Shown: positions 1 to 34,778 of the stretch, in pieces | Layout: every line of letters begins with the position of its first letter | Position numbering within the stretch: the stretch's first letter is position 1 | Assembly (NCBI RefSeq): GCF_019059575.1 | Contig: NW_024883049.1 | Coordinates: 79,691-143,690, forward strand | DNA: 64,000 nt | Direction: 5' to 3' | DNA from: Amphibalanus amphitrite | Taxonomy: Eukaryota > Arthropoda > Thecostraca > Balanomorpha > Balanidae | Notes under the pieces: model-generated | Told to the model about the DNA's origin: nothing | Seen by the model: only the letters and a program-made list of their open reading frames with translations | The model's database searches: none | Made by a program: the position numbers and the translations under genes

Positions 1-444
1 AATTCAACTTTGACCTCGTGCAAAGACACGTTACGAAGTTCTGAGGGGTATACGGCGCACACCAGCGTGTACCCAAACGTGTTTGCCATAAAATGCTGGG
101 AAGAAAACCACCTCTTCCTTGGCTCGTTTTCCCGCCATTGGCGATCGCGCAAAAAGTGTCCAAAACCCCGTTGACTTAACATGGGGAAAATGGAATCGCA
201 CGTGCCACGTGCCACGAGGTTTTAAGCGAGTAGCGACCGGTGCCAACAGGTAGATCGCCTGCGGGAGCCCATACACTGAAATTTTTAAGAAAATCGAGCC
301 ACAAGTTTAGGCCTGACCCAAGTTGCCCCAATTCGCGGCCAGACATGCAAAACATAGCCCGGAGAAGGACCGCTCCGGTTGTTTTTCAATAGAAAAACAC
401 AATTCTAACGAATAGTGTTTGTCTTTTCAAACAACCTGCGGTTA
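1..444. repeat. Array unit 0 (cut by the window edge)
   Basis: Right part of a unit whose left side lies outside the window. It holds the conserved TTGACTTAACATGGGG block, the GAGTAGCGACCGGTGCCA block and the standard terminus. Confidence 0.85.
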
Positions 445-664
445 AGCGAGTAGCGACCGGTGCCATCAGGTAGATCGCCTGCGGGAGCCCATACCCTGAA
501 ATTTTTACGAAGATTGAGGGATTCGTTTAGGAGAGGCTCAACTTGTCTCGATTCGCGGCCAGACTTGCAAAACATAGCCCGGAGAAGGACCGCTCCGGTT
601 GTTTTTCAATAGAAAAACACAATTCTAACGAATAGTGTTTGTCTTTTCAAACAACCTGCGGTTA
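445..664. repeat. Array unit 1, severely truncated (220 bp)
   Basis: Starts at AGCGAGTAGCGACCGG directly after the preceding GGTTA. In longer units this block is preceded by TTTTAAGCG, so TTA is shared at the junction (3-bp microhomology). The unit retains only the last ~220 bp before the terminus. Confidence 0.85.
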
Positions 665-2893
665 AGATCTGGAAGCGAACCCTACACGTGCTCACGTGCA
701 GCTGCACCCCAACCGTGGCACATGAAAATACATACTTACTGACTTGTGCACGGCACCCTACTAACCAGTCTCTAGTGGTATGCCAAATTTGAGCACAGTC
801 GGCCCGGCCGTTCTCGAGATCTGGAAGCGTCAGCCTGCACGTGCGCACGTGCAAAATGAGTCCCATCTGACTTGTGCACGGCACCCTACTCGCCGATCCC
901 TAACGGTGTGCCAACTTTGATCACAATCGGCCCAGCCGTTCTCGAGATCTGGAAGCGTCACCGTGCCCGTGCGCACGTGCAGCGGCACCCCAACCGTGAC
1001 ACATGGAAATGCATTGCGCGTCGGGTGCCTACAACCATGCCAAGTATCAGCGCAATCGGCAAACTAACTACAGAGTTATTAGACTTGTTACCGAACTGAC
1101 ACCTCTTCGTTTTGCACGTGGCACGTGCATTAGGGGTCGCCCATACGCATCAAGAACAGCACACTACGTGTAAGAAAGGAAGACGCTATCCCACACAAAA
1201 GACCGCGAGTGAATCGGTCCAGTGGTTGCAGAGATATATGGTTTGTAAAGGCACCCCACAGGCGGCCTACTGCTAATATTTAGCAATAATCAGTGTCGCG
1301 TCCGCACATGGGAGGTATCCCCTTCACCTGTTCGTATACTCTAATGTGGTTGGGTTCAAGTCACAGTCGAGCCCTGCTTTTTTACAACTTTTCTTAAAAA
1401 CGGCACATCGTGTGGTGACGTTCTATACATTGTTGGATAGAGCATCGAAAGTTGTATATTTTATTACCTTTTCACTTTGATACATAAGCAATGTAAAAAG
1501 TTATTAAGCAACAAAGACGCTCCCATTGACTTTCCATGTTAAAAATTTTAAATTTCAAATTAACTTTATAAGAAAAAATGAGTTATGCCAGCTTAACGAA
1601 GCATAACGGCATGTACAATACTCTTTCCTCTACAAGATATAAGAATATGGGCGAAATCTATCTCTAAAATTTTGTACAAAGATCGAATGAAAATGTCTCT
1701 GCAAAGTCTCGACATCGCCGTCCATTGACTTAACATGGGACACAGCAAAATTCCAACTTTGACCTCGCGCAAAGACACGTTCCGAGATTCTGAGGGGTAT
1801 ACGGCGCACACGGGCGTGTACCTGAACGTGTTTGCCATAAAATGCTGGGATGAAAACCACCCCTTTCTTGGCTCGTTTTTCCGCCATTCGCGATCGCGCA
1901 AAAAGTGTCCAAAACCCCGTTGACTTAACATGGGGAAAATGGAATCGCACGTGCCACGCGCAAAAGACTTCTTAGCGAGTAGCGACCGGTGCCATCAGGT
2001 AGATCGCCTGCGGGAGCCCATACCCTGAACTTTTTACGAAGATTGTACATTTCGTCTAGGCCCCCGTCAAGTTGTACTGACGTCAAGTTGTACTAACGAT
2101 GTATAGCACGTGCAGTGACGTGCTATACATCGTTAGAAAGAGCATCGAAAGTCGTATATTATATCAACTTTTCACCTATATATATTACTAACGATAAAAG
2201 TTATAGAGGAATAAAGACGCACCCATTGACTTTCCATGTTAAAAATTTTCATTTTCAAACGAACTTTATTAGAAAAAACGATTTCTGCCAGCTTAACGAA
2301 GCACACCAACATGTACTATGCTCCTTTCTCTACAAGATATAAGAGTTTGGGCGAAATCTATCTCTAAAATTTTGTACAAAGATCGAATGAAAATGTCTCT
2401 GCAAAGTCTCGACATCGCCGTCCATTGACTTAACATGGGACACAGCAAAATTCCAACTTTGACCTCGTGCAAAGACACGTTCCGAGATTCTGAGGGGTAT
2501 ACAGCGCACACTGGCGTGTACCCAAACGTGTTTGCCATAAAATTCTGGGAAGAAAACCACCTCTTCCTTGGCTCGTTTTCCCGCCATTCGCGATCGCGCA
2601 AAAAGTGTCCAAAACCCCGTTGACTTAACATGGGGAAAATGGAATCGCACGTGCCACGCGCAAAAGACTTCTTAGCGAGTACCGACCGGTGCCATCAGGT
2701 AGATCGCCTCCGGGAGCCCATACCCTGAACTTTTTACGAAGATTGAGCGATTCGTTTAGGCCCCCGTCAAGTTGCCCCAATCTCAGGCCAACTTTGCAAA
2801 ACATACCCCGGAGAACCACCGCTCCGGTTGTTTTTCAATAGAAAAACACAATTCTAACGAATAGTGTTTGTCTTTTCAAACAACCTGCGGTTA
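665..2893. repeat. Array unit 2 (2229 bp)
   Basis: Starts inside a central module at AGATCTGGAAGCG. It then has two further E-box-palindrome modules, the spacer region and two tandem versions of the conserved right-hand body (around 1370-1990 and 2100-2700) before one terminus. An internal duplication or loss of one terminus is the simplest reading. Confidence 0.82.
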
Positions 2894-3849
2894 CGCCGCC
2901 AAACGAGAGGATGAGCCTTGCACGTGCAGCCCGGAGCGGGTGTGTCACGAACTGACGTGCACTGCACTCTACACGGGAGGTATCCCCGTCACCTGTTCGT
3001 ATACTCTAATGTGGTTGGGTTCAAGTCACAGTCGAGCCCTGCTTTTTTACAACTTTTCTTGAAAACGGCACACCGTGCAGTGACTTTCTATACATCGTGG
3101 GAAAGAGCATCGAAAGTTGTATATTCTATTAACTTTTCACTTTTATATACGTGCAACGTAAAAACTTATTAAGCAACAAAGACGCTCCCATTGACCTTCC
3201 ATGTTAAAAATTGTCATTTTTAAACAGGCTTTTAAAGAAAAAACGATTTTGCACAGCTTAACGAAACACAACAGCATATACTATGCTCCTTCTTCAACAA
3301 CTCTTGAATGTTTGGACGAAATCGTGACACATAATTTTTTACAATGTGCGAATGAAAATATCTCTGCAAAATTGTCCATTCACTTAACATGGGACACAGC
3401 AAAATTCCAACTTTGACCTCGTGCAAAGAAACGTTCCGAGATTCTGACGGGTATACGGCGCACACTGGCGTGTACCGGAACGTGTTTGCCATAAAATGCT
3501 GGGATGAAAACCACCCCTTTCTTGGCTCGTTTGTCCGCCATTCCCGATGGCGCAAAAAGTGCCCCAAACCGCCATTGACTTAACATGGGCGAAAATTCAA
3601 ACGCACGCGCCACGCGCAAAAGAATTCTGAGCGAGTAGCGACCGGTGCCATCAGCTAGATCGCCTGCGAAAGTCTATACCCTGAGATTTTTACGAAAATC
3701 GTTGCAGAAGTTTTGGCTGGAATCAAGTTGTACTGATTCGCTGCCAAGTATGGAAAACATAGCCCGGAGAACGACTGCTCCGGTTGTTTTTCAATAGAAA
3801 AACACAATTCTAACGAATAGTGTTTGTCTTTTCAAACAACCTGCGGTTA
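2894..3849. repeat. Array unit 3 (956 bp)
   Basis: Starts at CGCCGCCAAACGAGAGG, near the hairpin end of the parent element, then skips most central modules and resumes at the GGGAGGTATCCCCG block. This is an internally deleted copy. Confidence 0.82.
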
Positions 3850-5152
3850 TGATCATCGACATTGCCAGTGACCCACCACATGACGCAAATATGTACACGG
3901 GTACGAGATCTGGAAGCGTCACCCTGCCCGTGCGCACGTGCAGCGGCACCCCAACCGTGACACATGGAAATGCATTGCGGGGCGGGTGCCTACATCCATG
4001 CCAAGGAATAGCGCAATCGGCAAAATAACTAGAGTTATTACACATGCTACCGAACTGTCACCTCTTCGTTTTGCACGTGGCACGTGCATTAGGGGTCACC
4101 CATACGCATCGAGAATAGCACACTACGTGTAAGAATGGAAGAGGCTATCCCACACAAAAGACGGCGAGTGAATCGGTCAAGCAGTTGTGGAGATATAAGC
4201 TTTGCAAAGGCGCACCCACAACGGCCGACTGCCAATAATAAGCAATAATCAGTGTCGCGTCCGCACATGGGAGGTGTCCCCTTCACCTGTTCGTATAGTC
4301 TAATGTGGTTGGGTTCAAGTCACAGTCGAGCCCTGCTTTTTTACAGCTTTTCTTAAAAACGGCACATCGTGCAGTGACGTTCTATACATTGTTGGAAAGA
4401 GCATCGAAAGTTGTATATTTTATTAACTTTTCACTTTGGGATATCTGCAACGTAAAAAGTTATTAAGCAACAAAGACGCTCCCATTGACTTTCCATGTTA
4501 AAAAATTTAAATTTCAAATTAACTTTAAAAGAAAAAATGAGTTTTGCCAGCTTAACGAAGCATACCAGCAAGTACTATGCTCTTTCCTCTACAAGATATA
4601 AGAGTTTGGGCGAAATCTATCTCTAAAATTTTGTACATAGATCGAATGAAAATGTCTCTGCAAAATCTCGGCATCGCCGTCCATTGACTTAACATGGGAC
4701 ACAGCAAAATTCCAACTTTGACCTCGTGCAAAGACACGTTCCGAGATTCTGAGGGGTATACAGCGCACACTGGCGTGTACCTGAACGTGTTTGCCATAAA
4801 ATGCTGGGAAGAAAACCACCTCTTCCTTGGCTCGTTTTCCCGCCATTCGCGATCGCGCAAAAAGTGTCCAAAACCCCGTTGACTTAACATTGGGAAAATG
4901 GAATCGCACGTGCCACGCGCAGAAGACTTCTTAGCGAGTACCGACCGGTGCCATCAGGTAGATCGCCTCCGGGAGCCCATACCCTGAAATTTTTACGAAG
5001 ATTGAGCGATTCGTCTAGGCCCCCGTCAAGATGTCTCGATTCGCGGCCAACTTTGCAAAACATACCCCGGAGAACGACCGCTCCGGTTGTTTTTCAATAG
5101 AAAAACACAATTCTAACGAATAGTGTTTGTCTTTTCAAACAACCTGCGGTTA
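3850..5152. repeat. Array unit 4 (1303 bp)
   Basis: The first ~55 bp (3850-3904) do not match other units that I can see. From GAGATCTGGAAGCG onward it follows the family through to the standard terminus. Confidence 0.8.
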
Positions 5153-6703
5153 CAATCGGTCCGGCCGTTCTCGAGATCTGGAGGCGTCACCCTGCACGTG
5201 TGCACGTGCAATAGCACCCCAACCGTGGCACATGAAAATACATACTTACTGACTTGTGCACGGCACCCTACTAACCAGTCTCTAGTGGCATGCCAAATTT
5301 TAACACAGTCGGCCCGGCCGTTCTCGAGATCTGGAAGCGTCGTCCTGCACGTGCGCACGTGCAAAATGAGTTCCATCTGATTTGTGCACGGCACCCTACT
5401 CGCCGATCCCTAACGGTGTGCCAATTTTGATCACAATCGGCCCAGCCGTTCTCGAGATCTGGAAGCGTCACCCTGCCCGTGCGCACGTGCAGCGGCACCC
5501 CAACCGTGACACACAGGAATGTATTACCCGGCGGGTGCCTACCCCCATGCCATGTATCAGCGCAATCGGCAAAATAACTACAGAGTTATTAGACTTGCTA
5601 CCGAACTGACACCTCTTCGTTTTGCACGTGGCACGTGCATTAGGGGTCACCCATACGCACCGAGAGTAGCACACTACGTGTGAGAAAGGAAGAAGCTATC
5701 CCACACAAAAGACCGTGATTGAATCGGTCAAGCAGTTGTGGAGATAGAAGCTTTGCAAGGCGCCCCCACAGTCGGCCTACTGCTAATATTTAGCAATAAT
5801 CAGTGTCGCATCCGCACACGGGAGGTATCGCCGTCACCTGTTCGTATACTCTAATGTGGTTGGGTTCAAGTCACAGTCGAGCCCTGCTTTTTTACAACTT
5901 TTCTTGAAAACGGCACACTGTGCAGTGACGTTCTATACATCAGTGGAAAGAGCATCAAAAGTTGTATATTATATTAACTTTTCACCTATATATATTACTA
6001 ACGATAAAAGTTATAGAGGAATAAAGACGCTCCCATTGACTTTCCATGTTAAAAATTTTAATTTTGAAATTAACTTTATAAGAAAAAATGAGTTATGCCA
6101 GCTTAACGAAGCATAACGGCATGTACTATGCTCTTTCCTCTACAAGATATAAGAGTTTGGGCGAAATCTATCTCTAAAATTTTGTACAAAGATCGAATGA
6201 AAATGTCTCTGCAAAGTCTCGACATCGCCGTCCATTGACTTAACATGGGACACAGCAAAATTCCAACTTTGACCTCGTGCAAAGACACGTTCCGAGATTC
6301 TGAGGGGTATACAGCGCACACTAGCGTGTACCGGAACGTGTTTGCCATAAAATGCTGGGAAGAAAACCACCCCTTTCTTGGCTCGTTTTTCCGCCATTCC
6401 CGATGGCGCAAAAAGTGTCCAAAACCCCGTTGACTTAACATGGGGAAAATGGAATCGCACGTGCCACGTGCCACGAGGTTTTAAGCGAGTAGCGACCGAT
6501 GCCATCAGGTAGATCGCCTCCGGGAGCCCATACACTGAACTTTTTACGAAGATTGTACATTTCGTCTAGGCCCCACCCAAGTTGCCCCAATTCGCGGCCA
6601 GACTTGCAAAACATAGCCCGGACAACGACCGCTCCGGTTGTTTTTCAATAGAAAAACACAATTCTAACGAATAGTGTTTGTTTTTTCAAACAACCTGCGG
6701 TTA
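5153..6703. repeat. Array unit 5 (1551 bp)
   Basis: Starts inside a central module at CAATCGGTCCGGCCG; the parent reads CACAATCGG, so the junction shares an A. Three modules follow, then the spacer and conserved right body. The terminus has TTTTTTCAAAC in place of GTCTTTTCAAAC. Confidence 0.82.
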
Positions 6704-6779
6704 CCTCTGTAACGCCGCAAAAACGCCCGCCGCCAAACGAGAGGATGAGCCTTGCACGTGCAGACCGGTGTGGGTGTGT

Positions 6780-7335
6780 TACGAGCTAACGTGCACGGCA
6801 CTCTACTAACCGGTCTCTAGCGGTGTGCCAAATTTGAGTGCAATCGGCCCGGCCGTTTTCGAGATCTGGAAGCGGCACCCTTCACGTGCGCACGTGCAAG
6901 CTGGGTCCAAACTGACTTGTGCGCGGCACCCTAGTTGCCGGTCTCTAGCGGTGTACCGAATTTAAACTCAATCGGCCCAGCCGTTTCCAAGATCTGGAAG
7001 CGACCCCTACACGTGCGCACGTGCAGTTGCACCCCAACCGTGACACATGAATATATGTACAATGTACATACTAACTGACCTGTGCACAGCACCCTACTAA
7101 CCGGTCTCTAAAGGTTTGCCGAATTTGAATGCAATCGGCCCAGCCGTTCCTGAGATCTGGAAGCGTCACCCTGCACGTGCGCACGTGCAGCCTGGGGCCT
7201 AGCTGACCTGTGCAAGGCACCCTACTACGCGGTCTCTAGTAGTGTGCCAACTCTGAGCACAATAGGCCCGGCCGTTCTCGAGATCTGGAAGCGTCACCCT
7301 GTACGTGGGCACGTGCAGTTGCACCCCAATCGTGG
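6780..7335. repeat. Central tandem modules with 20-bp E-box palindrome (exemplar)
   Basis: Modules begin near TGACTTGTGCACGGCACC, run through GTGTGCCAAATTTGAG, CAATCGGCCCGGCCGTT and GAGATCTGGAAGCG, and end in CTGCACGTGCGCACGTGCAG, a perfect palindrome with two CACGTG cores. Spacing alternates between about 127 bp (module followed by AAGCTGGGTCC) and about 153 bp (module followed by TTGCACCCCAACCGTGACAC). Other runs: 700-970, 5153-5510, 9700-10205, 11540-12080, 15240-15730, 19090-19630, 21632-22040, 28000-28520, 29724-30200 and 31600-32300. The palindrome is kept while flanks drift. Confidence 0.85.
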
Positions 7336-7510
7336 CACATTAGGTCAGTGACCTTACCTAACCAGAAAATGCGGTCGGTGTCATAAGATCCGGCTTGAAT
7401 CATAGATCAGGTTTTCCAAGTTTCAGCACTTTGTCGCCGGCGTGTCCCAAGCTATCACGAAAAACCCTATGGGAAGAGGCGGGTGCTGCCCCTCTGCTGG
7501 CGAGGGTTTA
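7336..7510. repeat. Right end of an AGGTCA-rich element, copy 1
   Basis: Runs from TTAGGTCAGTGACC through GTCATAAGATCCGGC to GCGAGGGTTTA. It matches 14149-14318, which ends GCGAGGGTTAA. The TTAA-like edge and G/C hairpin (GGCGGGTGCTGCCCC) resemble the ends of the TTAA-flanked element at 39528. Confidence 0.65.
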
Positions 7511-11401: not shown

Positions 11402-11451
11402 CCAGCATCTGCGATGCTGGGCTCCGCATCGCGGGACCGCAGGTTGTTTGA
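11402..11451. repeat. Hairpin end of the array element with inverted copy of the terminus
   Basis: CCAGCATC-TGC-GATGCTGG forms an 8-bp stem; GCGATGC and GCATCGC just inside could form an alternative stem. ACCGCAGGTTGTTTGA at 11436-11451 is the reverse complement of the terminal TCAAACAACCTGCGGT. The same arrangement is at 13279-13328, 18957-19006 and 27851-27900. Confidence 0.88.
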
Positions 11452-13277
11452 GCAAGCACCTTTGTAAACGCAGCAAAAACCCCCGTCGCCAAACGAAAGG
11501 ATGAGCCTTGCACGTGCAGACCGGAGTCGGTGTGCTACGAACTGACGTGCACGGCACCCTATTCGCCGGTCTATAGCGGTGTGCCAAATTTGAGTGCAAT
11601 CGACCCGGCCGTTTTCTAGATCTGGAAGCAACACCCTGCACGTGCGCACGTGCAGCCTGGGCCCCAATTGACTTTTGCACGGCACTCTATTCGCCGGTCT
11701 CTAGCGGTGTACCGAATTTAATCTGAATCGGCCCAGCCGTTTCCAAGATCCATGGAAGCGACCCCTACACGTGCGCACGTGCAGCTGCACCCCAACCGTG
11801 GCACATGGAAATACATACTAACTGACTTGTGCACGGCACCCTACTAACCAGTCTCTAGTGGTATGCCAAATTTGAGCACAGTCGGCCCGGCCGTTCTCGA
11901 GATCTGGAAGCGTCGTCCTGCACGTGCGCACGTGCAAAATGAGTCCCATCTGATTTGTGCACGGCACCCTACTCGCCGATCCCTAACGGTGTGCCCAACT
12001 TTGATCACAATCGGCCCAGCCGTTCTCGAGATCTGGAAGCGTCACCCTGCCCGTGTGCACGTGCAGCGGCACCCCAACCGTGACACATGGAAATGCATTG
12101 CGCGGCGGGTGTCTACAACCATGCCAAGTCTCAGTGCAATCGGCAAACTAACTACAGAGTTATTAGACTTGTAACCGAACTGACACCTCTTCGTTTTGCA
12201 CGTGGCACGTGCATTAGGGGTCACCCATACGCATCGAGAGTAGCACACTACGTTTGGGAAAGGAAGAAACTATCCCACACAAAAGACCGCGAGTGAATCG
12301 GTCCTGTGGTTGCAGAGATATAAGGTTTGTAAAGGCACCCCCCGGCGGCCTACTGCTAATATTTAGCAATAATCAATGTCGCGTCCGCACATGGGAGGTG
12401 TCCCCTTCACCTGTTCGTATATTTTAATGTGGTTGGGTTCAAGTCACAGTCGAGCCCTGCTTTTTTACAACTTTTCTTGAAAACGGCACACCGTGCAGTG
12501 ACGTTCTATACATCAGTGGAAAGAGCATCAAAAGTTGTATATTATATTAACTTTTCACCTATATATATTACTAACGATAAAAGTTATAGAGGAATAAAGA
12601 CGCACCCATTGACTTTCCATGTTAAAAATTTTCATTTTCAAACGAACTTTATTAGAAAAAACGATTTCTGCCAGCTCAACGAAGCATACCAGCATGTACT
12701 ATGCTCCTTTCTCTACAAGGTATAAGAGTTTGGGCGAAATCTATCTCTAAAATTTTGTACAAAGATCGAATGAAAATGTCTCTGCAAAGTCTCGACATCG
12801 CCGTCCATTGACTTAACATGGGACACAGCAAAATTCCAACTTTGACCTCGTGCAAAGACACGTTCCGAGATTCTGAGGGGTATACAGCGCACACTGACGT
12901 GTACCCAAACGTGTTTGCTATAAAATGCTGGGAAGAAAACCACCTCTTCCTTGGCTCGTTTTTTCCGCTATTGGCGATCGCGCAAAAAGTGTCCAAAACC
13001 CCGTTCACTTAACATGGGGAAAATGGAATCGCACGTGCCACGCGCAAACGAATTCTTAGCGAGTAGTGACCGGTGCCATCAGGTAGATCGCCTCCGGGAG
13101 CCCATACCCTGAACTTTTTACGAAGATTGAGCGATTCGTCTAGGCCCCACCCAAAATGTCTCGATTCGCTGCCAGACTTGCAAAACATAGCCCGGAGAAC
13201 GACCGCTCCGGTTGTTTTTCAATAGAAAAACACAATTCTAACGAATAGTGTTTGTCTTTTCAAACAACCTGCGGTTA
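11402..13277. repeat. Array unit 8, reaches the hairpin end (1876 bp)
   Basis: Begins with the CCAGCATCTGCGATGCTGG hairpin and an inverted copy of the terminus at 11436-11451. It is followed by modules, spacer and right body, and is among the best candidates for a full-length copy without secondary insertion. Confidence 0.87.
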
Positions 13278-13574
13278 ACCAGCATCTGCGATGCTGGGCT
13301 CCGCATCGCGGGACCGCAGGTTGTTTGAGCAAGCACCTCTGTAACGCCGCCAAAACACCCGCCGCCAAACGAGAGGATGAGCCTTGCACGTGCAGACCAG
13401 AGTGGGTGTGCTACGAACTGACGTGCACTGCACTCTAACCTCTGTAACCCACTCACCCGTGCACGCAGCAAAAACGCCCGCCGCCAAACGGAGGACGAGC
13501 CTTGCACGTGCAGACCCGAGTGGGTGTGCTACGAACCGACGTGCACGACACTACTAACCGCTATCATCGTGCTT

Positions 13575-14318
13575 ACCTTGCTAAGGCGCGTCGAATGATA
13601 TTTTTTTTGTTTGGTTTAGGTCAACCTAAGGTATTGACCTCGGGTCAAGGGCAGGTCAGAGCCCCTCAGGTCATGAGGCTGGTCGAAGGAGGTCATATCG
13701 CATACCATTTGATTCGGCAGGTCTTTCAGAGTCCATTTGTAGCTTTTTCGACTCCCTAGCTCAATTTTAGCAGGAGTTATTGACAGAAAACTCCTTTGAC
13801 TATAGTGACGTCATAAATGACGTTACGCAATGTCAACAATTAAAAATAGAACATTGGACCTTGCAAGGAATGCATGAAATCACGATTTCATGCGCTTGAG
13901 ATAGTTTTAGATCATTTCCAGCGCCAAAATACCAGTTTTCATATTTCCCCATTGACTTATAATAGTGAGGTCACATGACCGACCTGACCTCATGTGACCT
14001 TTGAAAAATACGAGTTATACAAGTTGGACATCCTGGGAGGCTACTACGTCCTGTAAGTTTCATCTTTCTGTGAAAGTTCCTCTGGTACTGAGGGCGGTGC
14101 GAAGTTGCGACCTCTGAGGACAGTGCAGAAGTTCACTTATGACGTCATAGGTCAGTGACCTTACGTAACCAGAAAATGTGGTCGAAGTCATAAGATCCGG
14201 CTTAAATCATAGGTTAGGTATTCCAAGTTTCAGCACTTTTGTCTCCGGCGTGTCCCGAGCTATCACGAAAAACCCTATGGGAAGAGGCGGGTGCTGCCCC
14301 TCTGCCGGCGAGGGTTAA
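13575..14318. repeat. AGGTCA-rich element inside unit 9
   Basis: Shares TCGAATGATAT near its left edge, GGAGGTCATATCGC, TAGTGACGTCATAAATGA and CGCCAAAATA-CAGTTTTCAT with 44190-45125. It ends at GCGAGGGTTAA on a TTAA. Nuclear-receptor half-sites (AGGTCA and complement) recur throughout. No coding capacity is seen. Confidence 0.72.
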
Positions 14319-14900
14319 TCAATATTGACGCAATGGTGACGTCACGGTCGCCGTCGACGTCACCATTCGAATCAGAGTCATTGAATTGTGCCGAATATCA
14401 AGTTTAAGATTGATGCTTCAACGGATCTGTATATCAGTCGAAAACACCTTACATTCCTTTTTACTCGCTAGATGGCAGAAGCGTCAAACGCCTGAATGTA
14501 TGCTGTGCCGCAATGCCGGCTCTATTGTATATAACCGCCTAAATAAATGGCGGAGTAATGAGGGATCCGGGAAAACCACTATCTCTTTAGAACTGATGAC
14601 TCGCACGAGACTGGAGCTTTTGAGGACGATTATCGAGTATGGTAAATGCGTCTGGCATTTTAGCCAAACATTCCGTTTTACTCGCTAGATGACGCAGAAG
14701 TGTCAAACGCCTGAAAGCATGTTGCGCCGGAGTGCCACCTCTTCTGTATGCAGCCGCATGGATGAAGATTTAAGCGCAATTGGCGCAGCCGTTCTCGCCG
14801 GTGTGTGCCTACATAGAGGTCCAACCATGCCGCTGAAATTGATCTATCATACAAAGCTTTATAACAATGCGCGTAGTGATTTTCTTAACAAACGCAAAAA
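14319..14900. repeat. TCAATATTGACG block, copy 3
   Basis: Best preserved copy of the block, with GTGACGTCAC and CGACGTCACC palindromic CRE-like motifs, and two ~220-bp direct subrepeats starting TTTTACTCGCTAGATG. Confidence 0.8.
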
Positions 14901-15140
14901 AGCTAATAGGTGTGGCTAAAAACACCTTCGCCCCACTCGGGCGGAGGTTAATGTGTTTTGGTAGCAAACTCGCCGATTGTTCCCTGTTCGAGTCTTCTAC
15001 TGCAATCACAAACACATTTCGATTCGCGGCCAACCATGCAAAACATAGCCCGGTGAAGGACTGCTCCGGTTGTTTTTTTCAATAGAAAAGCACAATTCTA
15101 ACGAATGGTGTTTGTCTAATGAAGAAACAACCTGCGGTTA

Positions 15141-17515: not shown

Positions 17516-17536
17516 TGTATTGGCTCAAGCCGTATC

Positions 17537-18956: not shown

Positions 18957-21631
18957 CCGGCATCTGCGATGCCGGGCTCCGCATCGCGGGACCGCAGGTT
19001 GTTTGAGCAAGCACCTTTGTAAACGCAGCAAAAACGCCCGCCACCAAACGAGAGGATGAGCCTTGCACGTGCAGACCGCAGTCGGTGTGCTACGGACTGA
19101 CGTGCACGGCACCCTATTCGTCGGTCTATAGCGGTGTGCCAAATTTGAGTGCAATCGACCCGGCCGTTTTCGAGATCTGGAAGCGACACCCTGCACGTGC
19201 GCACGTGCAGCCTAGGCCCCAATTGACTTGTGCACGGCACTATTCGCCGGTTTCTAGCGGTGTACCAAATTGGAGCTCAATCAGCCCCGTCAATTTCAAG
19301 ATCTGGAAGCGACCCCTACACGTGCGCTGGTGCAACTGCACCCCAACCGTGGCACATGAAAATACATACTAACTGACTTGTGCACGGCACCCTACTAACC
19401 AGTCTCTAGCGGTATGCCAAATTTCAGCAGAGTCGGCCCAGCCGTTCTTGAGATCTGGAAGCGTCAGCCTGCACGTGCGCACGTGCATAGCGGGTCCCAT
19501 CTGACTTGTGCACGGCACCCTACTTACCAGCCTCTAGCGGTGTGCCAAGTTTGATCACAATCGGCCCAGCCGTTCTCGACATCTGGAAGCGTCACCCTGC
19601 CCGTGCGCACGTGCAGTTGCACCCCTACCAAGACACGTGGAAATGCATCGCCTGGAATGTGTCTACCTCCATGCCAAGTTTTAGCGCAATCGGCCCAGTA
19701 ATTACCGCGAGCTATTGCACTTATTACAAAACAGGCACCTCTTGGCTTTGCACGTGGAACGTGCGTTAGGGGTCACCCATATGCATCGAGAGTAGCACAC
19801 TATGTGAAAGAAGGAAAAAAGCTACCCAACACAAAAAACCGCACGTGTATCAGCCCAGTGGTTGCCGAGATATAAGTCGTACAAAAACGTCCCCACGGCG
19901 GCCGGCCGCTATTTAGCAGTAAAATCGTGTCGCATCCTTCTATGGGAGGTATCCCCGTCACCTGTTCGTATACTGTCTGAGCAAAGACCATACGTTACGG
20001 TCCAAACTCCATAGTGAGGCGGACATACGAATTTACGAGAGTTTAGCGACGAAATGATTCACTTAATTGTTAAGTAATGGGTACCATTAGGTAGACCATA
20101 AATTTTATCTAGCATCTCACCGTAGATGCAGTAAAAAGTGCTTTACTTTTCAATGTATATAAAGACTTGCTCAGCTCAATCAGTTCACTCTGTATTGGCT
20201 CAAGCCGTATCATGCGAACGCAATGCAAACTAGAGCACCGACAGCGCAGCGCTCCCCATCTCACTGCTCGCCCAGTCCACCCGGGCCGCCGCCACGACGG
20301 CCCCCCGCAAGTAGGCATCCCGCACTGCACCGACAGCCGCGGGCGACCAGCTGACCGGCCAGCTGACCGGCCAGCAGCCGGCGGGCGGCAGGGCGCGGAT
20401 GGCCGACCCGCCGGCGCGGCGAGGGAGGGGAGGAACGCAGCTGAAAGACCCGACTACATATATATCAAAGAAACATTATATGTAATCATCGATGACGCGA
20501 CATAAATCTGCTTTATTGGGGTTAGCGGTGTAGTCTGTGATGCCATCACAATGAAAATAGGCGCCTAGTTTTGTACAGCATCAAATTCTGATTCCATAAC
20601 GACTCTCGCTAGTCCATTTTCAATTGTAAATAAGCCTTTTATTGCGATGCAAAGTCCCGAAATGGTGCCGACGGCGGCCGGTCCCCCGATGGTACCATAC
20701 CATAGATGGTAAACAGGTTAGTTCACATTCCCGCCGCTATGCGGGCGGCGGCGGCGCCACCTGTCCTCGTGTCCGCCTGACACCGTAACGATATAGGTCT
20801 GAGCTCAAATCTCGGTAATGTCGTGCTTTTTTACTATATTTCTCAAAAACGGCACCACGTGCAATAAAGTTGTATATATCATTGGAAAGAGCATCAAAAG
20901 TTGTATAAAATATCAACTTTTCACTTGAATATGTCTTCAAGGTACAAAGTTATTAAGCACCAAAGACGCTCCCATTGACTTTCCATGTTAAAATTTTTCA
21001 TTTTTAAAGAAGCCTAAAGACAACAAACGAATTTGCACAGCTTAAAGAAGCATAACAACATGTTCTATGGTCTTTTCTCAACAAGTCCTGAAAGTTTAAA
21101 CAAAATCGTATCATATAATTTTGTACAATGAGCGAATGAAAAAGTCTCTGCAAAAACGCCCATTGACTTAACATGGGGAGCGAAAAAAGTTCAACTTTGA
21201 CCTCGTGCAAAGACACGTTACGAAGTTCTGAGGGGTATACGGAGCACACTAGCGTGTACCTGAACGTGTTTGCCATAAAATGCTGGGAAGAAAACCACCT
21301 CCTTCTTGGCTCGTTTTCCCGCTATTCGCGATCGCGCAAAAAGTGTTCAAAACCCCATTGACTTAACATGGGGAAAATGGAATCGCACGTGCCACGTGCC
21401 ACGAGGTTTTAAGCGAGTAGCGACCGGTGCCAACAGGTAGATCGCCTGCGGGAGCCCATACACTGAAATTTTTAAGAAAATCGAGCCACAAGTTTAGGCC
21501 TGACCCAAGTTGCCCCAATTCGCGGCCAGACATGCAAAACATAGCCCGGAGAAGGACCGCTCCGGTTGTTTTTCAATAGAAAAACACAATTCTAACGAAT
21601 AGTGTTTGTCTTTTCAAACAACCTGCGGTTA
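18957..21631. repeat. Array unit 12 (2675 bp), hairpin end plus 798-bp insertion
   Basis: Longest near-identical unit of the 11-14 group. It begins with a hairpin variant, CCGGCATC-TGC-GATGCCGG, in which both stem strands changed together. Modules at 19090-19630 precede the spacer, the 798-bp element and the right body. Confidence 0.88.
19993..20790 (+). mobile_element. 798-bp TIR element, copy in unit 12
   Basis: Same ends, same insertion point and same length as the unit 11 copy, so it was amplified with the array unit rather than inserted independently. Confidence 0.78.
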
Positions 21632-26156: not shown

Positions 26157-26228
26157 CTCCGGTTGTTTTTCAATAGAAAAACACAATTCTAACGAATAGT
26201 GTTTGTCTTTTCAAACAACCTGCGGTTA
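26157..26228. repeat. Array unit 15, terminus only (72 bp)
   Basis: Consists of nothing but the invariant end, from CTCCGGTTG to CGGTTA. It defines a minimal terminal cassette and is a second terminus placed directly behind the first. Confidence 0.88.
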
Positions 26229-26701
26229 CCCGCACTGCACCGACAGCCGCGGGCGACCAGCTGACCGGCCAGCTGACCGGCCAGCAGCCGGCGGGCGGCA
26301 AGCCACGGATGGCCGACCCGCCGGCGCGGCGAGGGAGGGGAGGGACGCAGCTGAAAGACCCGACTACATATATATCAAAGAATGATACATTATATGTAAT
26401 CATCGATGACGCGACATAAATCTGCTTTATTGGGTTTAGCGGTGTAGTCTGTGATGCCATCACAATGAAAATAGCCTAGTTTTGTAGAGCATCAAATTCT
26501 GATTCCATAACGACTCTCGCTAGTCCATTTTCAATTGTAAATAAGCCTTTTATTGCGATGCAAAGTCCCGAAATGGTGCCGACGGCGGCCGGTCCCCCGA
26601 TGGTACCATACCATAGATGGTAAACAGGTTAGTTCACATTCCCGCCGCTATGCGGGCGGCGGCGGCGCCACCTGTCCTCGTGTCCGCCTGACACCGTAAC
26701 G
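26229..26701 (+). mobile_element. 798-bp TIR element, left-truncated copy in unit 16
   Basis: Only the right ~470 bp remains because the array unit itself begins inside the element. Several small differences from units 11-14 (AAGCCACGG, AATGATACATT) are partly shared with unit 20. Confidence 0.76.
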
Positions 26702-27542
26702 ATATAGGTCTGAGCTCAAATCTCGGTAATGTCGTGCTTTTTTACTATATTTCTCAAAAACGGCACCACGTGCAATAAAGTTGTATATATCATTGGAAAG
26801 AGCATCAAAAGTTGTATAACCTATCAACTTTTCACATAAATATATCTCAACTGTAAAAAGTTATTAAGCAGCAAAGACGCTCCCATTGACTTTCCATGTT
26901 AAAATTTTTCATTTTTAAACGAGCCTAAAAAGAACAAACGAATTTGCACAGCTTAAAGAAGCATAACAACATGTTCTATGGTCTTTTCTCAACAAGTCCT
27001 GGAAGTTTAAACAAAATCGTATCATATAATTTTGTACAATGAGCGAATGAAAAAGTCTCTGCAAAAATGCCCATTGACTTAACATGGGGAGCGAAAAAAG
27101 TTCAACTTTGACCTCGTGCAAAGTCACGTTACGAAGTTCTGAGGGGTATACGGCGCACACTAGCGTGTACCCAAACGTGTTTGCCATAAAATGCTGGGAA
27201 GAAAACCACCTCTTCCTTGGCTCGTTTTCCCGCTATTCGCGATCGCGCAAAAAGTGTCCAAAACCCCATTGACTTAACATGGGGAAAATGGAATCGCACG
27301 TGCCACGTGCCACGAGGTTTTAAGCGAGTAGCGACCGGTGCCAACAGGTAGATCGCCTGCGGGAGCCCATACACTGAAATTTTTAAGAAAATCGAGCCAC
27401 AAGTTTAGGCCTGACCCAAGTTGCCCCAATTCGCGGCCAGACTTGCAAAACATAGCCCGGAGACGGACCGCTCCGGTTGTTTTTCAATAGAAAAACACAA
27501 TTCTAACGAATAGTGTTTGTCTTTTCAAACAACCTGCGGTTA
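26229..27542. repeat. Array unit 16 (1314 bp), starts inside the 798-bp insertion
   Basis: Starts at CCCGCACTGCACCGACAG, which lies within the 798-bp element of units 11-14, so truncation occurred after that insertion. The right end of the insertion is at 26701. Confidence 0.87.
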
Positions 27543-27850
27543 TGGAACCACCTCCCAGAATCATTAACCCGCGCACCGACGGGGGTCTGCGCCAACTTAG
27601 TACCGACGGGGGGCGGATGACCGCCCCCCCCTGAGATCTCGAGAACGAAGCAAGATAGCGACAAGCGGTAAACGGCATCGGATACGCACGGTCAAGATCT
27701 ACAATTTTTACTCAGGTCATTTTCAGGTCAGGTCAAAGATGACGTCACAGGGGTCGAAAAAGTCAAAATGGCGGCGCTAAATATGGAGAGAGTTTTTCTC
27801 GAATAACTTTCAAATTAGTCAAGATAGTCTTTTCAAACAACCTGCGGTTA
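27543..27850. repeat. Array unit 17: captured flanking DNA plus 22 bp of terminus
   Basis: 27543-27829 matches 39507-39794, the DNA directly following the solo unit at 39506. It comprises ~25 bp of LINE, a TTAA site and the left part of a TTAA-flanked element. The match stops at AGATAG, and the array terminus TCTTTTCAAACAACC resumes at once. Confidence 0.88.
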
Positions 27851-29723
27851 CCAGCATCTGCGATGCTGGGCTCCGCATCGCTGGACCGCAGGTTGTTTGA
27901 GCAAGCACCTTTGGAAACGCAGCAAAAACGCCCGCCGCCAAACGAGAGGATGAGCCTTGCACGTGCAGACCGGAGTCGGTGTGCTACGGACTGACGTGCA
28001 CGGCACCCTATTCGCCGGTCTATAGCGGTGTGCCAAATTTGAGTGCAATCGACCCGGCCGTTTTCGAGATCTGGAAGCGTGACCCTGCACGTGCGCACGT
28101 GCAGCCTGGGCCCTAATTGACTTGTGCACGGCACTCTATTCGCCGGTTTCTAGCGATGTACCAAATTTAATCTGAATCGGCCCAGCCGTTTCCAAGATCG
28201 GGAAACGACCCCTACACGTGCGCACGTGCAGCTGCACCCCAACCGCGGCACATGAAAATACATACTTACTGACTTGTGCACGGCACCCTACTAACTAGTC
28301 TCTAGTGGTATGCCAAATTTGAGCACAGTCGGTCCAACCGTTCTTGAGATATGGAAGCGTCAGCCTGCACGTGCGCACGTGCAAACTGGGTCCCATCTGA
28401 CTTGTGCACGGCACCCTACTCGCCGATCCCTAACGGTGTGCCAACTTTGATCACAATCGGCCCAGCTGTTCTCGAGATCTGGAAGCGTCACCCTGCCCGT
28501 GCGCACGTGCAGCGGCACCCCAACCGTGACACATGGAAATGCATTGCGCGGCGGGTCCCTACATCCATGCCAAGGATCAGCGCAATCGGCAAAGTAACTA
28601 CAGAGTTATTACACTTGCTACCGAACTGACACCTCTTCGTTTTGCACGTGGCACGTGCATTAGGGGTCACCCATGCGCATCGATAGTAGCACACTACGTT
28701 TGGGAAAGGAAGAAGCTATCCCACACAAAAGACCGTGATTGAATCGGTCAAGCAGTTGTGGAGATAGAAGCTTTGCAAGGCGCCCCCACAGTCGGCCTAC
28801 TGCTAATATTTAGCAATAATCAGTGTCGTATCCGCACACGGGAGGTATCGCCGTCACCTGTTCGTATACTCTAATGTGGTTGGGTTCAAGTCACAGTCAA
28901 GCCCTGCTTTTTTACAACTTTTCTTGAAAACTGCACACCGTGCAGTGACGTTCTATACATCAGTGGAAAGAGCATCAAAAGTTGTATATTATATTAACTT
29001 TTCACCTATATATATTACTGACCATAAAAGTTATAGAGGAATAAAGACGCACCCATTGAATTTCCATGTTAAAAATTTTCATTTTCAAACGAACTTTATT
29101 AGAAAAAACGATTTCTGCCAGCTTAACGAAGCATACCAGCATGTACTATGCTCCTTTCTCTACAAGATATAAGAGTTTGGGCGAAATCTATCTCTAAAAT
29201 TTTGTACAAAGATCGAATGAAAAGGTCTCTGCAAAGTCTCGACATCGCCGTCCATTGACTTAACATGGGACACAGCAAAATTCCAACTTTGATCTCGTGC
29301 AAAGACACGTTCCGAGATTCTGAGGGGTATACAGCGCACACTGGCGTGTACCCAAACGTGTTTGCCATAAAATGCTGGGAAGAAAACCACCTCCTTCTTG
29401 GCTCGTTTTCCCGCCATTGGCGATCGCGCAAAAAGTGTCCAAAACCCCGTTCACTTAACATGGGGAAAATGGAATCGCACGTGCCACGTGCCACGAGGTT
29501 TTAAGCGAGTAGCGACCGGTGCCATAAGGTAGATCGCCTCCGGGAGCCCATACACTGAACTTTTTACGAAGATTGTACATTTCGTCTAGGCCCCACCCAA
29601 AATGTCTCGATTCGCTGCCAGACTTGCAAAACATAGCCCGGAGAACGACCGCTCCGGTTGTTTTTCAATAGAAAAACACAATTCTAACGAATAGTGTTTG
29701 TCTTTTCAAACAACCTGCGGTTA
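27851..29723. repeat. Array unit 18, reaches the hairpin end (1873 bp)
   Basis: Hairpin at 27851-27869 and inverted terminus copy at 27885-27900. Modules, spacer and right body are uninterrupted, so this is a full-length candidate. Confidence 0.87.
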
Positions 29724-31593
29724 AATTTGGGTGCAATCGGCCCGGCCGTTTTCGAGATCTTGAAGCGGCACCCTGCACGTGCGCACGTGCAGGCTGGGTC
29801 CCAACTGACTTGTGCACGGCACTCTATTCGCCGGTCTCTAGCGGTGTACCAAATTTAATCGCATTCGGCCCAGCCGTTTCCAAGATCTGGAAACGACCCC
29901 TACACGTGCGCACGTGCAGTTGCACCCCAACCGTGGCACATGAAAATACATACTTACTGACTTGTGCACGGCACCCTACTAACCAGTCTCTAGTGGTATG
30001 CCAAATTTGAGCACAGTCGGTCCAGCCGTTCTTGAGATATGGAAGCGTCAGCCTGCACGTGCGCACGTGCAAACTGGGTCCCATCTGACTTGTGCACGGC
30101 ACCCTACTCGCCGATCCCTAACGGTGTGCCAAGTTTGATCACAATTGGCCCAGCCGTTCTCGAGATCTGGAAGCGTCACCCTGCCCGTGCGCACGTGCAG
30201 CGGCACCCCAACCGTGACACATGGAAATGCATTGCACGGCGGGTGCCTACATCCATGCCAAATATCAGTGCAATCGGCAAACTAACTACAGAGTTATTAG
30301 ACTTGTTACCGAACTGACACCTCTTCGTTTTGCACGTGGCACGTGCATTAGGGGTCACCCATACGTATCGAGGGTAGCACACTACGTGTGAGAAAGGAAG
30401 AAGCTATCCCACACAAAAGACCGCAAGTGAATCGGTCAAGTGGTTGTGGAGATATAAGCTTTGCAAAGGCGCCCCCAGTGCGGCCGACTGCTAATAATTA
30501 GCAATATTCAGCGTCGCGTCCGCACATGGGAGGTGTCCCCTTCACCTGTTCGTATACTCTAATGTGGTTGGGTTCAAGTCACAGTCGAGCCCTGATTTTT
30601 TACAGCTTTTCTTAAAAACGGCACATCGTGCAGTGACGTTCTATGCACCAGTGGAAAGAGCATCAGAAGTTGTATATTATATTAACTTTTCACCTATATG
30701 TCTTACTAAAGATAAAAGTTATAGAGGAATAAAAACGCTCCCATTGACTTTCCATGTTAAAAATTTTCATTTTCCAACGAACTTTATTAGAAAAAAACGA
30801 TTTCTGCCAGCTTAACGAAGCATACCAGCATGTACTACGCTCTTTCCTGTACAAGCTATAAGAGTTTGGGCAAATTCTATCTCTAAAATTTTGTACAATG
30901 AACGAATGAAAATGTTTCTGCAAAGTCTCGGCATCGCCGTCCATTGACTTAACATGGGACACAGCAAAATTCCAACTTTGACCTTGTGCATAGAGGTGTT
31001 GCGAGATTCTGGCGGGTATACGGCGCACACGGGCGTGTACCGGAACGTGTTTGCCATAAAATGCTGGGAAGAAACCCACCTCTTCCTTGGCTCGTTTTCC
31101 CGCCATTGGCGATCGCGCAAAAAGTGTCCAAAACCCCGTTGACTTAACATGGGGAAAAGAATTCGCACGTGCCACGTGCCACGAGATTCTGGCGGGTATA
31201 CGGCGCACACGAGCGTGTACCTGAACGTGTTTGCCATAAAATGCTGGGAAGAAAACCACCTCCTTCTTGGCTCGTTTTCCCGCTATTAGCGATCGCGCAA
31301 AAAGTGTCCAAAACCCCATTGACTTAACATGGGCGAAAATGGAATCGCACGTGCCACGCGCAAAAGACTTCTTAGCGAGTAGCGACCGGTGCCATCAGGT
31401 AGATCGCCTACGGGAGCCCATACACTGAACTTTTTACGAAGATTGTACATTTCGTCTAGGCCCCGCTCAAGTTGCCCCAATTCGCGGCCAGACTTGCAAA
31501 ACATAGCCCGGAGAACGACCGCTCCGGTTGTTTTTCAATAGAAAAACACAATTCTAACGAATAGTGTTTGTCTTTTCAAACAACCTGCGGTTA
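29724..31593. repeat. Array unit 19 (1870 bp) with an internal duplication
   Basis: Starts inside a module at AATTTGGGTGCAATCGG. The block with GTATACGGCGCACAC and TGTTTGCCATAAAATGC occurs twice in tandem (about 30995-31150 and 31180-31330), which produces an unusually long but meaningless - strand open frame. Confidence 0.84.
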
Positions 31594-33375
31594 CGGAGTC
31601 GGTGTGCTACAAACTGACGTGCACGGCACCCTACTCGCTGATCTATAGCGGTGTGCCAAATTTGAGTGTAATCGGCTCGGCCATTTTCGAGATCTGGAAG
31701 CGTCACCCTGCACGTGCGCACGTGCAAGCTGTGTCCAATTGCATTGTGCATGGGACCCTATTCGCCGGTCTCTAGCGGTGTACCAAATTCGAGCTCAATC
31801 GGCCCAGCCGTTTTCAAGATCTTGAAACGACCCCTCCACGTGCGCACGTGCAGTTGCATCTCAACCGTGACACATGGAAATACATACTAACTGACTTGTG
31901 CACGGCACCCTACTGATCGATCTCTAGATGTTTGCCGAATTTGAGTGCAATCGGTCCAGCCGTTCTTGAGATCTGGAAGCGTCACCCTGCACGTGCGCAC
32001 GTGCAAGATGGGTCCAAACTGACTTGCGCACGGCAGTCGGCACCCTACTAATCGGTCTCTAGCGGTGTACCAAATTTGAACTCAATCGGCCCGGCCGTTC
32101 TCGAGATCTGGAAGCGTCACCCTGCACGTGCGCACGTGCAGTTGCACCCCAATCGTGGCACATGGAAATACATACTAAATGACTGCAACCTTCTGATCGG
32201 TATCAAGCGTTATGCCAAATTTGAACACAATCGGTCCAGCCGTTCTCGAGATCTGGAAGCGTCACCCTGCACGTGCGCACGTGCAGTTGCACCCCTACCA
32301 AGACACATGGAAATGCATCGCCTGGAAAGTGTCTACCTCCATGCCAAGTTTTAGCGCAATCGGCCCAGTAATTACCGCGAGCTATTGCGCTTATTACAAA
32401 ACAGGCACCTCTTGGCTTTGCACGTGGAACGTGCGTTAGGGGTCACCCATATCAATATGCATCGAGAGTAGCACACTATGTGAAAGAAGGGAAAAAGCTA
32501 CCCCACACAAAAAACCGCACGTGTATCAGCCCAGTGGTTGCCGAGATATAAGTCGTACAAAAACGTCGCCACGGCGGCCGGCCGCTATTTAGCAGTAAAA
32601 TCGTGTCGCATCCTTCTATGGGAGGTATCCCCGTCACCTGCCACTACTTCGTATACTGTCTGAGCAAAGGCCATACGTTACGGTCCAAACTCCATAGTGA
32701 GGCGGACATACGAATTTACGAGAGTTTAGCGACGAAATGATTCACTTAATTGTTAAGTAATCGGTACCATTAGGTACGCCATAAATTTTATCTAGCATCT
32801 CACCGTAGATGCAGTAAAAAGTGCTTTACTTTTCAATGTATATAAAGACTTGCTCAGCTCAATCAGTTCACTCTGTATTGGCTCAAGCCGTATCATGCGA
32901 ACGCAATACAAACTAGAGCACCGACAGCGCAGCGCTCCCCAACTCACTGCTCGCCCAGTCCACCCGGGCCGCCGCCACGACGGCCCCCCCGCAAGTAGGC
33001 ATCCCGCACTGCACCGACAGCCGCGGGCGACCAGCTGACCGGCCAGCTGACCGGCCAGCAGCCGGCGGGCGGCAAGCCGCGGATGGCCGACCCGCCGGCG
33101 CGGCGAGGGAGGGGAGGGACGCAGCTGAAAGACCCGACTACATATATATCAAAGAAACATTATATGTAATCATCGATGACGCGACATATATCTGCTTTAT
33201 TGGGTTTAGCGGTGTAGTCTGTGATGCCATCACAATGAAAATAGCCTAGTTTTGTAGAGCATCAAATTCTGATTCCATAACGACTCTCGCTAGTCCATTT
33301 TCAATTGTAAATAAGCCTTTTATTGCGATGCAAAGTCCCGAAATGGTGCCGACGGCGGCCGGTCCCCCGATGGTA

Positions 33376-33587
33376 CACTCGGGGGCAGAATGATGTTCCA
33401 CCACTCCCTACCCATCGGGCGATCCCATGGCTCAGCACTGGCTGCTGTCAGTGTTGCCTGCCCTCGGCACTGCTCAGCACTGCATGCCAGTGCCAGTGCT
33501 GCCAGTGCTGCCACTGGCAGCAGCCAGTGCTGAGCCATGGGAGCTCGATGGGTAGGGAGTCGTGGAACATCAATCTGCCCCCGAGTG
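33376..33587. mobile_element. 212-bp foldback MITE with CACTCGGGGGCAG ends
   Basis: Ends CACTCGGGGGCAG and CTGCCCCCGAGTG are inverted and flanked by TA on both sides; units without it read GGTACCATACC. Almost the whole insert folds back (CAGCACTGGCTGCTG against CAGCAGCCAGTGCTG). A TA duplication suggests Tc1/mariner mobilisation, while a CACT start would also fit a CMC-type element. Confidence 0.8.
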
Positions 33588-33602
33588 TACCATACCATAG
33601 AT

Positions 33603-33855
33603 CAGAGGGCTGTTCACGGGCCCTGTGTGCGGTCGGACCGCACACAGCCTCCAAGCTCCGCCCACTGCGTCCCTACGTCAGCCTTCCGTCACCGCACACA
33701 GCGATCGCTGTGGCCGTCGGGACTGGCCACAGCGGACCGTCCACCGCACGCAGCCGTGACGTCAGAACCGCCTACCCATCCCCTACCCCCACGCCTGCTG
33801 GACGCACCGCACACAGCGCACGCAGCAGTGTGCGGTGCCCGTGAACACCCCTCTG
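33603..33855. mobile_element. 253-bp MITE with CAGAGGG...CCCTCTG ends
   Basis: Terminal inverted repeats CAGAGGGCTGTTCACGGGC and GCCCGTGAACACCCCTCTG match except at one base. The interior is rich in CGCACACAGC motifs on both strands. It sits 15 bp from the previous MITE. CAGAGG ends resemble hAT elements, but I see no clear 8-bp duplication. Confidence 0.7.
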
Positions 33856-34778
33856 GTAAACAGGTTAGTTCACATTCCCGCCGCTATGCGGGCGGCGGCG
33901 GCGCCACCTGTCCTCGTGTCCGCCTGACACCGTAACGATATAGGTCTGAGCTCAAATCTCGGTAATGTCGTGCTTTTTTACTATATTTCTCAAAAACGGC
34001 ACCACGTGCAATAAAGTTGTATATATCATTGGAAAGAGCATCAAAAGTTGTATAACCTATCAACTTTTCACTTAAATATATCTCAACTGTAAAAAGTTAT
34101 TAAGCAGCAAAGACGCTCCCATTCACTTTCCATGTTAAAATTTTTCATTTTTAAACGAGCCTAAAAAGAACAAACGAATTTGCACAGCTTAAAGAAGCAT
34201 AACAATATGTTCTATGGTCTTTTCTCAACAAGTCCTGAAAGTTTAAACAAAATCGTATCATATAATTTTGTACAATGAGCGAATGAAAAAGTCTCTGCAA
34301 AAACGCCCATTGACTTAACATGGGGAGCGAAAAAAGTTCAACTTTGACCTCGTGCAAAGACACGTTACGAAGTTCTGAGGGGTATACGGCGCACACTAGC
34401 GTGTACCCAAACGTGTTTGCCATAAAATGCTGGGAAGAAAACCACCTCTTCCTTGGCTCGTTTTCCCGCCATTGGCGATCGCGCAAAAAGTGTCCAAAAC
34501 CCCGTTGACTTAACATGGGGAAAATGGAATCGCACGTGCCACGTGCCACGAGGTTTTAAGCGAGTAGCGACCGGTGCCAACAGGTAGATCGCCTGCGGGA
34601 GCCCATACACTGAAATTTTTAAGAAAATCGAGCCACAAGTTTAGGCCTGACCCAAGTTGCCCCAATTCGCGGCCAGACATGCAAAACATAGCCCGGAGAA
34701 GGACCGCTCCGGTTGTTTTTCAATAGAAAAACACAATTCTAACGAATAGTGTTTGTCTTTTCAAACAACCTGCGGTTA

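Follow-up and report, generated by a model that had tools for sequence, protein, structure and literature searches.

Head-to-tail arrays of a probable Helitron2/Helentron-like family in Amphibalanus amphitrite, with an OTU/Pif1-helicase reading frame as candidate mobiliser

How does an array arise in which every unit stops at the same base and the opposite ends of the units are scattered? The question is raised by a 64,000-nucleotide (nt) stretch of the genome of Amphibalanus amphitrite (Balanidae), positions 79,691 to 143,690 of contig NW_024883049.1 (assembly GCF_019059575.1, 807 Mb), referred to as the window throughout. Contigs are designated by C and a number; the window's own contig is C1552, and the window corresponds to C1552:79691-143690. 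Positions 1..34778 are occupied by a head-to-tail array of an element that reads 5' to 3' on the − strand, with a fixed 5' end (TAACCGCAGGTTGT) and a 3' hairpin end. The array was probably formed by a Helitron2/Helentron-like family whose copies stack at resident 5' termini, with a long open reading frame (ORF) carrying an OTU domain and a Pif1-type helicase, located outside the window on the same contig, as the likely mobiliser.

Layout of the array and its units

The fixed end ACAACCTGCGGTTA matched the window 22 times, always on the + strand and never on the − strand. Twenty-one of these matches lie at or before position 34778 (outermost fixed end of the array, 34765..34778, −), and the 22nd, at 39506, belongs to a partial unit outside the array (38720..39506, −). 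For 14 fixed bases, an arithmetic estimate gives a chance expectation of about 0.0005 matches per 128 kb of strand. Within the array, fixed ends are spaced 72 to 3185 bp apart, the first unit being cut by the window edge, which bears out an initial annotation of this DNA, made from the letters alone, that had described 21 units ending at one invariant base, with the other end 72 to over 3000 bp away. Long stretches up to the fixed end are common to most units, and their start points vary.

Read along the + strand, full-length units open with the hairpin, and the fixed end recurs next to it in inverted form, as had also been proposed at the outset. In the non-autonomous unit at 11402..13277 (−; 5' end at 13277, 3' hairpin end at 11402), the terminal hairpin (11402..11420, −) is followed by the 3' arm of a subterminal inverted repeat (11436..11451, +), whose 16 nt pair exactly, 16/16, with the 5' arm at 13260..13275 (+). 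On the − strand, the terminal hairpin forms an 8-bp stem without mismatch, but its folding energy is not beyond that of shuffled sequences (z −0.8 and −1.0); the energy of the subterminal hairpin at the element's 5' end (13218..13277, −) does lie beyond that of shuffles (z −3.2). Further full-length units occupy 18957..21631 (−; 2675 bp, CCGG hairpin variant), 27851..29723 (−; 1873 bp), and 13278..15140 (−; hairpin from 13279), the last being of a second subfamily and in part resembling the sequence 5' of the ORF on C1552. Units 7 and 10 belong to another subfamily than most units of the array, and a 72-nt copy (26157..26228, −) consists of the 5' end only. The central tandem repeats that had been anticipated are present, with a period of about 128 bp. 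Rfam returned no match in the window at gathering score.

Across the 807 Mb, the fixed end had 3768 exact matches (none for the backwards control), and hairpin ends numbered 1744 or 1726 by two patterns. Exact head-to-tail joints in one register, GGTTA followed directly by CCAGCATCTGCGATGC, were found 774 times; other registers are present in our sample, and the genome-wide count covers this one. The window array is one among many such arrays in this genome. Further units lie to the left of the window on the same contig, where C1552:35584-75400 is a duplicate of the window array, 97–100% identical by segment save for units present in one copy only. This near-identity with window 1-34814 within one contig perhaps reflects a joined haplotype or a tandem duplication. 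Because of the duplicate, the 21 units need not be single-copy sequence; whether it is real or a joined haplotype, filled and empty sites can be compared between the two.

Insertion without target duplication and growth of the array

Such comparisons, together with presumed solo copies, supply the two kinds of site that had been named as support for a rolling-circle element. On C1552, an element at 34154-36025 is nested in an older unit and splits its host between GAGGTTTTA and AGCGAG without duplication, and the unsplit host string GAGGTTTTAAGCGAG had 65 matches in the sampled sequences (some loci overlap). An insertion on C6 likewise separates TTTCAATGTATA from TAAAGACTTG without duplication; TTTCAATGTATA was found 30 times, and the five displayed are unsplit. 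A full-length unit of 2681 bp in the other duplicate (C1552:59318-61998) is absent at window 27542..27543 (−), where the resident 5' end is directly adjoined by TGGAACC, with an exact join and no duplication. The presumed solo copies on C12, C5, and C1, judged solo from the spacing of their ends with interiors partly read, also lack a duplication, although the C1 copy sits inside a (TTAGG)n run, where duplication of whole repeats would be invisible. None of the full-length insertions examined shows a target-site duplication of constant length, the hallmark of DDE transposases. A DDE element of the cut-and-paste type, bounded by terminal inverted repeats, could account for the 16-bp inverted repeats, but these are asymmetric, the terminal hairpin is present at one end alone, and the target is not duplicated, which leaves this explanation with a practically negligible probability.

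The C1 copy lies within a (TTAGG)n / (CCTAA)n run (loci L001, C1:80163-83176, and L052, C1:84250-84750), which suggests an internally located telomeric repeat of the arthropod type. Telomere specificity was considered and rejected, as five other contig stretches held no run of three TTAGG.

For the target site, we sampled 49 hairpin ends, which come mostly from arrays, including the duplicated C1552 array, and do not form a random sample. Of these, 35 directly follow a GGTTA end. The other 14 were counted by eye, L057 being read with its CGCG variant and C1552:48863 with a hairpin lacking one base; every one of them has a flank ending in A, and in 12 the last two bases are TA. On the − strand, insertion accordingly lies before a T, namely TA in 12/14 and TT in 2/14. 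The element's own 5' end also starts with TA (TAACC), the base preceding it is A, G, or T, and the 3' end is CTGG or CCGG, depending on the subfamily.

The initial annotation had the array built in place by repeated initiation at one 5' end. In-place copying predicts that neighbours are each other's nearest relatives, and this is mostly not what we see. When units below 300 nt were omitted (two units had no comparable match), the best relative was a neighbour in only 4 of 18 units in the window and 5 of 30 on C6. The unit C1552:59318-61998, one of the extra units of its duplicate, is 97.6% identical to C6 copies over its length and 93.3% to copies on its own contig; its second half is 93.3% identical to its neighbour. 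Independent insertion at resident ends therefore appears to dominate, with local copying as an addition.

The related view that the arrays stem from few insertions and grew mainly by tandem duplication, through unequal exchange or rolling-circle copying in place, draws on the large duplication within C1552, on a 412-nt stretch identical to its neighbour, and on units 14 and 15, which are identical over 2109 bp. Adjacent units are also slightly more alike than expected by chance (172/5000 permutations in the window, 27/5000 on C6), which counts against stacking as the only process and indicates that local copying contributes. Nevertheless, the best relative is not the neighbour in 14/18 and 25/30 units, and one duplicate's extra units are closer to C6 copies, and we regard growth mainly by tandem duplication as improbable. 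The data are better matched by new copies at resident 5' ends, with nested insertions and a measure of abortive local copying in addition, than by construction in place.

The varying start points had been described as a ladder of truncations, which holds in part, as some of the short units are of another kind. Window 445..664 (−), equal to C1552:36026-36245, is no true truncation; it is the remainder of a unit split by the nested full-length insertion. Window 27543..27850 (−) is a flank-duplicating copy in which about 23 nt of the element's 5' end adjoin 285 nt of flanking sequence, the latter being 98.6% identical to 39507-39794. The 285-nt flank (window 39507-39794) recurs inside the array beside the 23-nt element end as if carried in. 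A truncated copy of 1569 nt is present only in the left duplicate, inside the interior of a unit; its empty site is window 2970..2973 (−), and 2–4 nt are duplicated at the filled site. At the array edge (window 34765..34778), the left duplicate has extra units; behind two of them, copies of 22 nt and 413 nt, a 34-nt stretch of the flank is repeated, and the 413-nt copy is 100% identical to its neighbour along 412 nt. Short pieces on C9 carry flank repeats of 10, 15, and 155 nt. Flank duplications of 10, 15, 34, or 155 nt at some short copies are unlike textbook Helitrons and speak against the preferred assignment; we infer that these copies are abortive starts at a nicked resident 5' end.

Both the ladder of truncations at one end and the short copies with flank duplications of 10–155 nt would also suit an element resembling a long interspersed nuclear element (LINE), which moves by target-primed reverse transcription (TPRT), with a fixed 3' end, 5' truncation, and tandem insertion at its own end. 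This is very unlikely, since no duplication accompanies the full-length insertions examined and no reverse transcriptase was found in the 13 pieces and ORFs scanned around the OTU/helicase ORF. A TPRT or telomeric retrotransposon, prompted by the fixed end abutting (TTAGG)n and by the flank duplications, was rejected, as full-length copies are free of duplications and the OTU-helicase ORF was found.

An OTU/Pif1-helicase reading frame in and near the arrays

The candidate mobiliser lies outside the window at C1552:9518-19039 (−), where the frame stays open for 3174 codons. Pfam recognised an N-terminal OTU domain (5e-11), AAA_19 (1.4e-11), and PIF1 (2.5e-6). Between OTU and helicase, EWGANANPHIH at residue 1718 and YALKYTMK at residue 2000 correspond to HUH and two-tyrosine motifs. 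The pattern EWx5PHxH occurred in 5 and YxxKYxxK in 46 of 20,000 shuffles and both together in none, the patterns having been written after the ORF was seen. Six of eight fetched Pfam-recognised Helitron Reps of the same genome contain EWQKRGLPHAH and YxxKYxxK. The frame is intact and multi-copy, in or near arrays: 31 of 213 candidate copies were scored, each 98–100% identical over 1511 amino acids (aa), and 23 of the 31 have a frame of at least 3158 aa. Pfam found no endonuclease domain over the ORF, its last 161 aa included, and for ten further ORFs beside it the best Pfam E-value was 0.014. Immediately 5' of the ORF, a splice-acceptor-like TTTGCAG is found on C1685 (L037), C2052 (L039), C282 (L041), C134 (L043), and C29 (L036), and TTCCAG takes its place on C1552; the ORF may be a gene with a 5' intron.

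An element of the Rep-helicase type that shares the ends of the units had been sought as further support, and the ORF is placed accordingly on two contigs. On C1552, where its orientation is that of the element, it is enclosed by a hairpin end at 2246 and a fixed end at 26593 (one mismatch); no further end was found in this interval, and additional fixed ends follow at 30721 and 32513. On C78, the ORF is followed after 13 kb by a hairpin end whose interior is unlike that of the units, and a fixed end precedes the ORF by 10 kb; the parts read between these two ends contain no exact ends. Array-type 5' sequence and fixed ends precede the ORF on C264, C29, and C1552, the first fixed ends found 5' of it being 7 and 9 kb away on C29 and C264, respectively. 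On the 3' side, C78, C264, and C282 have a common flank (96–99%, 6–8 kb beyond the ORF): C264 and C78 share 1817 bp at 96%, and the sequence of C282 7.6–8.4 kb beyond the ORF recurs at 97–99% in both. Since C1685 and C2052 scarcely differ from the C1552 locus, they do not count as independent support.

Co-location was assessed on C1–C103, where the list of exact junctions is complete. Four of the five ORF copies there lie less than 50 kb from an array junction, versus none of the 35 Helitron_like_N rows; about 1.8% of the C1–C103 sequence falls within 50 kb of a junction (contig sizes interpolated from 14 known). Genome-wide, Helitron_like_N had 148 matches (for example on C64, C575, and C1662), several with frames above 1800 aa; some lie 13–26 kb apart on one contig, and several rows are pieces of one gene. 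These matches are other Helitrons, away from listed array junctions where this could be checked. As drivers of the arrays, the genome's Pfam-recognised Helitrons were rejected, with 0/35 rows on C1–C103 (148 in all) within 100 kb of a listed junction.

Several observations weigh against the ORF as mobiliser. Its two motifs are 274 residues apart, compared with 141–143 in the other Reps; the Pfam Rep model Helitron_like_N did not match the ORF at E < 10; a profile comparison of the ORF region with other Reps detected nothing; and the predicted structure of the Rep region was uninformative (predicted local distance difference test, pLDDT, of 35). The putative Rep identity of the ORF hence rests on the two motifs. 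In addition, C282 matches C1552 up to 5432 and then diverges. As C1552 leaves the 3' flank common to C282, C264, and C78, its 3' end looks chimeric, and the hairpin end there may come from a non-autonomous unit fused to it; in that case, a full-length ORF element rests on C78, which was partly read. The 5' flanks of the ORF copies are mosaic, the likeness of C80 and C295 extends only some 600 bp past the ORF in either direction, and one ORF copy of the five (C63) has no listed junction.

The arrays could consequently be Helitron-like, with the OTU-helicase ORF stemming from a different Helitron-like element that inserted in or near them and the real mobiliser unseen. The mosaic 5' flanks, the abrupt end of the likeness between C80 and C295, and the departure of C1552 from the common 3' flank before its hairpin end would suit this explanation. 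It is countered by the family hairpin end with a non-unit interior beyond the ORF on C78, by the fixed ends and array-type sequence on the 5' side of the ORF on C264, C29, and C1552, and by the distance of the other Rep rows from arrays (0/35), and we consider it unlikely. The ORF at C1552:9518-19039 and its copies probably move the array elements.

A stacking mechanism can be outlined on this basis. On the − strand, the element starts with TAACCGCAGGTTGTTTGA and ends with a subterminal inverted copy of TAACCGCAGGTTGTTTGA and the terminal hairpin; at the sites examined, its full-length copies went in ahead of a T (mostly TA) and left the target unduplicated. The likely mobiliser would be the product of the 3174-codon ORF, with its N-terminal OTU protease, predicted HUH/two-tyrosine Rep motif, and Pif1-type helicase. 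A resident 5' terminus begins with TA and would itself be the site that Rep cleaves. If Rep nicks such termini, new copies could be directed there; these, full length or cut short on the 3' side, would be joined at the resident copy's 5' terminus, and the array would grow. Truncated copies may represent early terminations repaired by the host. It is a serious, if still tentative, possibility that the transposase prefers the resident 5' terminus as its landing site, because the site cut to start replication is also an accepted target, so that copies are stacked in register.

Other features of the window include a DDE_3 transposase piece (49166-49630, −) and a reverse transcriptase/RNase H piece (56651-57325, −), which we take to be of Tc1/mariner type and Gypsy-like, respectively. 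Dense tandem repeats of 21–22 bp, rich in GGCCCTCTGA-like motifs, occupy 61548-62132.

Relation to known rolling-circle elements

IS91, a bacterial HUH rolling-circle element without a helicase domain, transposes in a one-ended mode and has one constant and one variable end. The array elements resemble it in their rolling-circle character and in these ends, and differ in host, helicase, and target.

Within eukaryotes, Thomas et al. 2014 (PMC4067079) describe Helentrons as endonuclease-bearing elements that use T-rich sites and leave the target unmodified; they have a palindrome on the 3' side, and their subterminal repeats lie 2–4 nt from the 5' end and 38–60 nt from the 3' end. Compared with Helentrons and their non-autonomous derivatives (HINEs, including DINE-1), our elements are alike in their subterminal inverted repeats (2 nt from the 5' end and 34 from the 3' end), 3' palindrome, unmodified target, and many short derivatives, as well as in tandem repeats in some copies and in OTU, which some Helentrons carry (PMC4067079). 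The 16-bp arms exceed the 11 bp that define Helentron repeats and accompany a terminal hairpin. By contrast, no C-terminal AP-type endonuclease was found by Pfam over the ORF, the putative Rep falls outside the Pfam model, mostly TA rather than TT follows the element, and exact head-to-tail joints number in the hundreds. The initial reading as a Helentron-like rolling-circle element hence stands as regards solo copies, empty sites, and a Rep-helicase-type ORF, but since no endonuclease domain was found, we call the family Helitron2/Helentron-like and not strictly Helentron.

Helitron2 elements, according to PMC5148889, combine an asymmetric terminal inverted repeat with a hairpin, and fungal members lack the endonuclease, which OTU often joins in Helentrons. 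That source also reports one copy of FoHeli of Fusarium 2 bp upstream of another's 5' end, and several elements in which more than one 5' terminus accompanies a single 3' terminus, a pattern attributed to self-insertion. Our family has the same asymmetric ends and hairpin and a Rep-helicase without endonuclease, Rep being recognised by motif; short 5' duplications and single cases are described there, in contrast to the arrays of tens of units and the OTU domain seen here. Helraiser cannot do without its left (5') end but does not strictly need the right one (PMC5876387), which fits the variable 3' ends of our units. The canonical Helitron1 signature (5' TC, 3' CTRR, insertion at A^T) is absent, the ends being 5' TAACC and 3' CTGG/CCGG, and neither reverse transcriptase nor duplication at full-length insertions, as expected for LINE-type TPRT, was found in the pieces and sites examined.

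Tandem arrays of truncated Helitrons reportedly occur in plant centromeres (Xiong, Dooner and Du, in 2016), and are said to have many 5' ends and few 3' ends. The likeness to our arrays lies in the tandem truncated copies; those arrays, as far as that account goes, consist of plant Helitrons, whereas insertion at resident ends is seen here by presence or absence of single units.

To our knowledge, how Helitrons choose their targets, and why some form tandem arrays, is an open question. Measured against prior reports in a subset of the open-access literature, resident-end targeting may be what is new here. The family appears young and intact, and one genome offers exact joints in the hundreds along with several presence/absence pairs and short copies that look abortive, so that resident-end targeting and in-place copying become directly testable against each other. 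The arrays point to a route from transposon to satellite-like array. If new copies do land at resident 5' ends, this may spare genes from new insertions and would give rise to satellite-like arrays of mixed subfamilies across a large genome.

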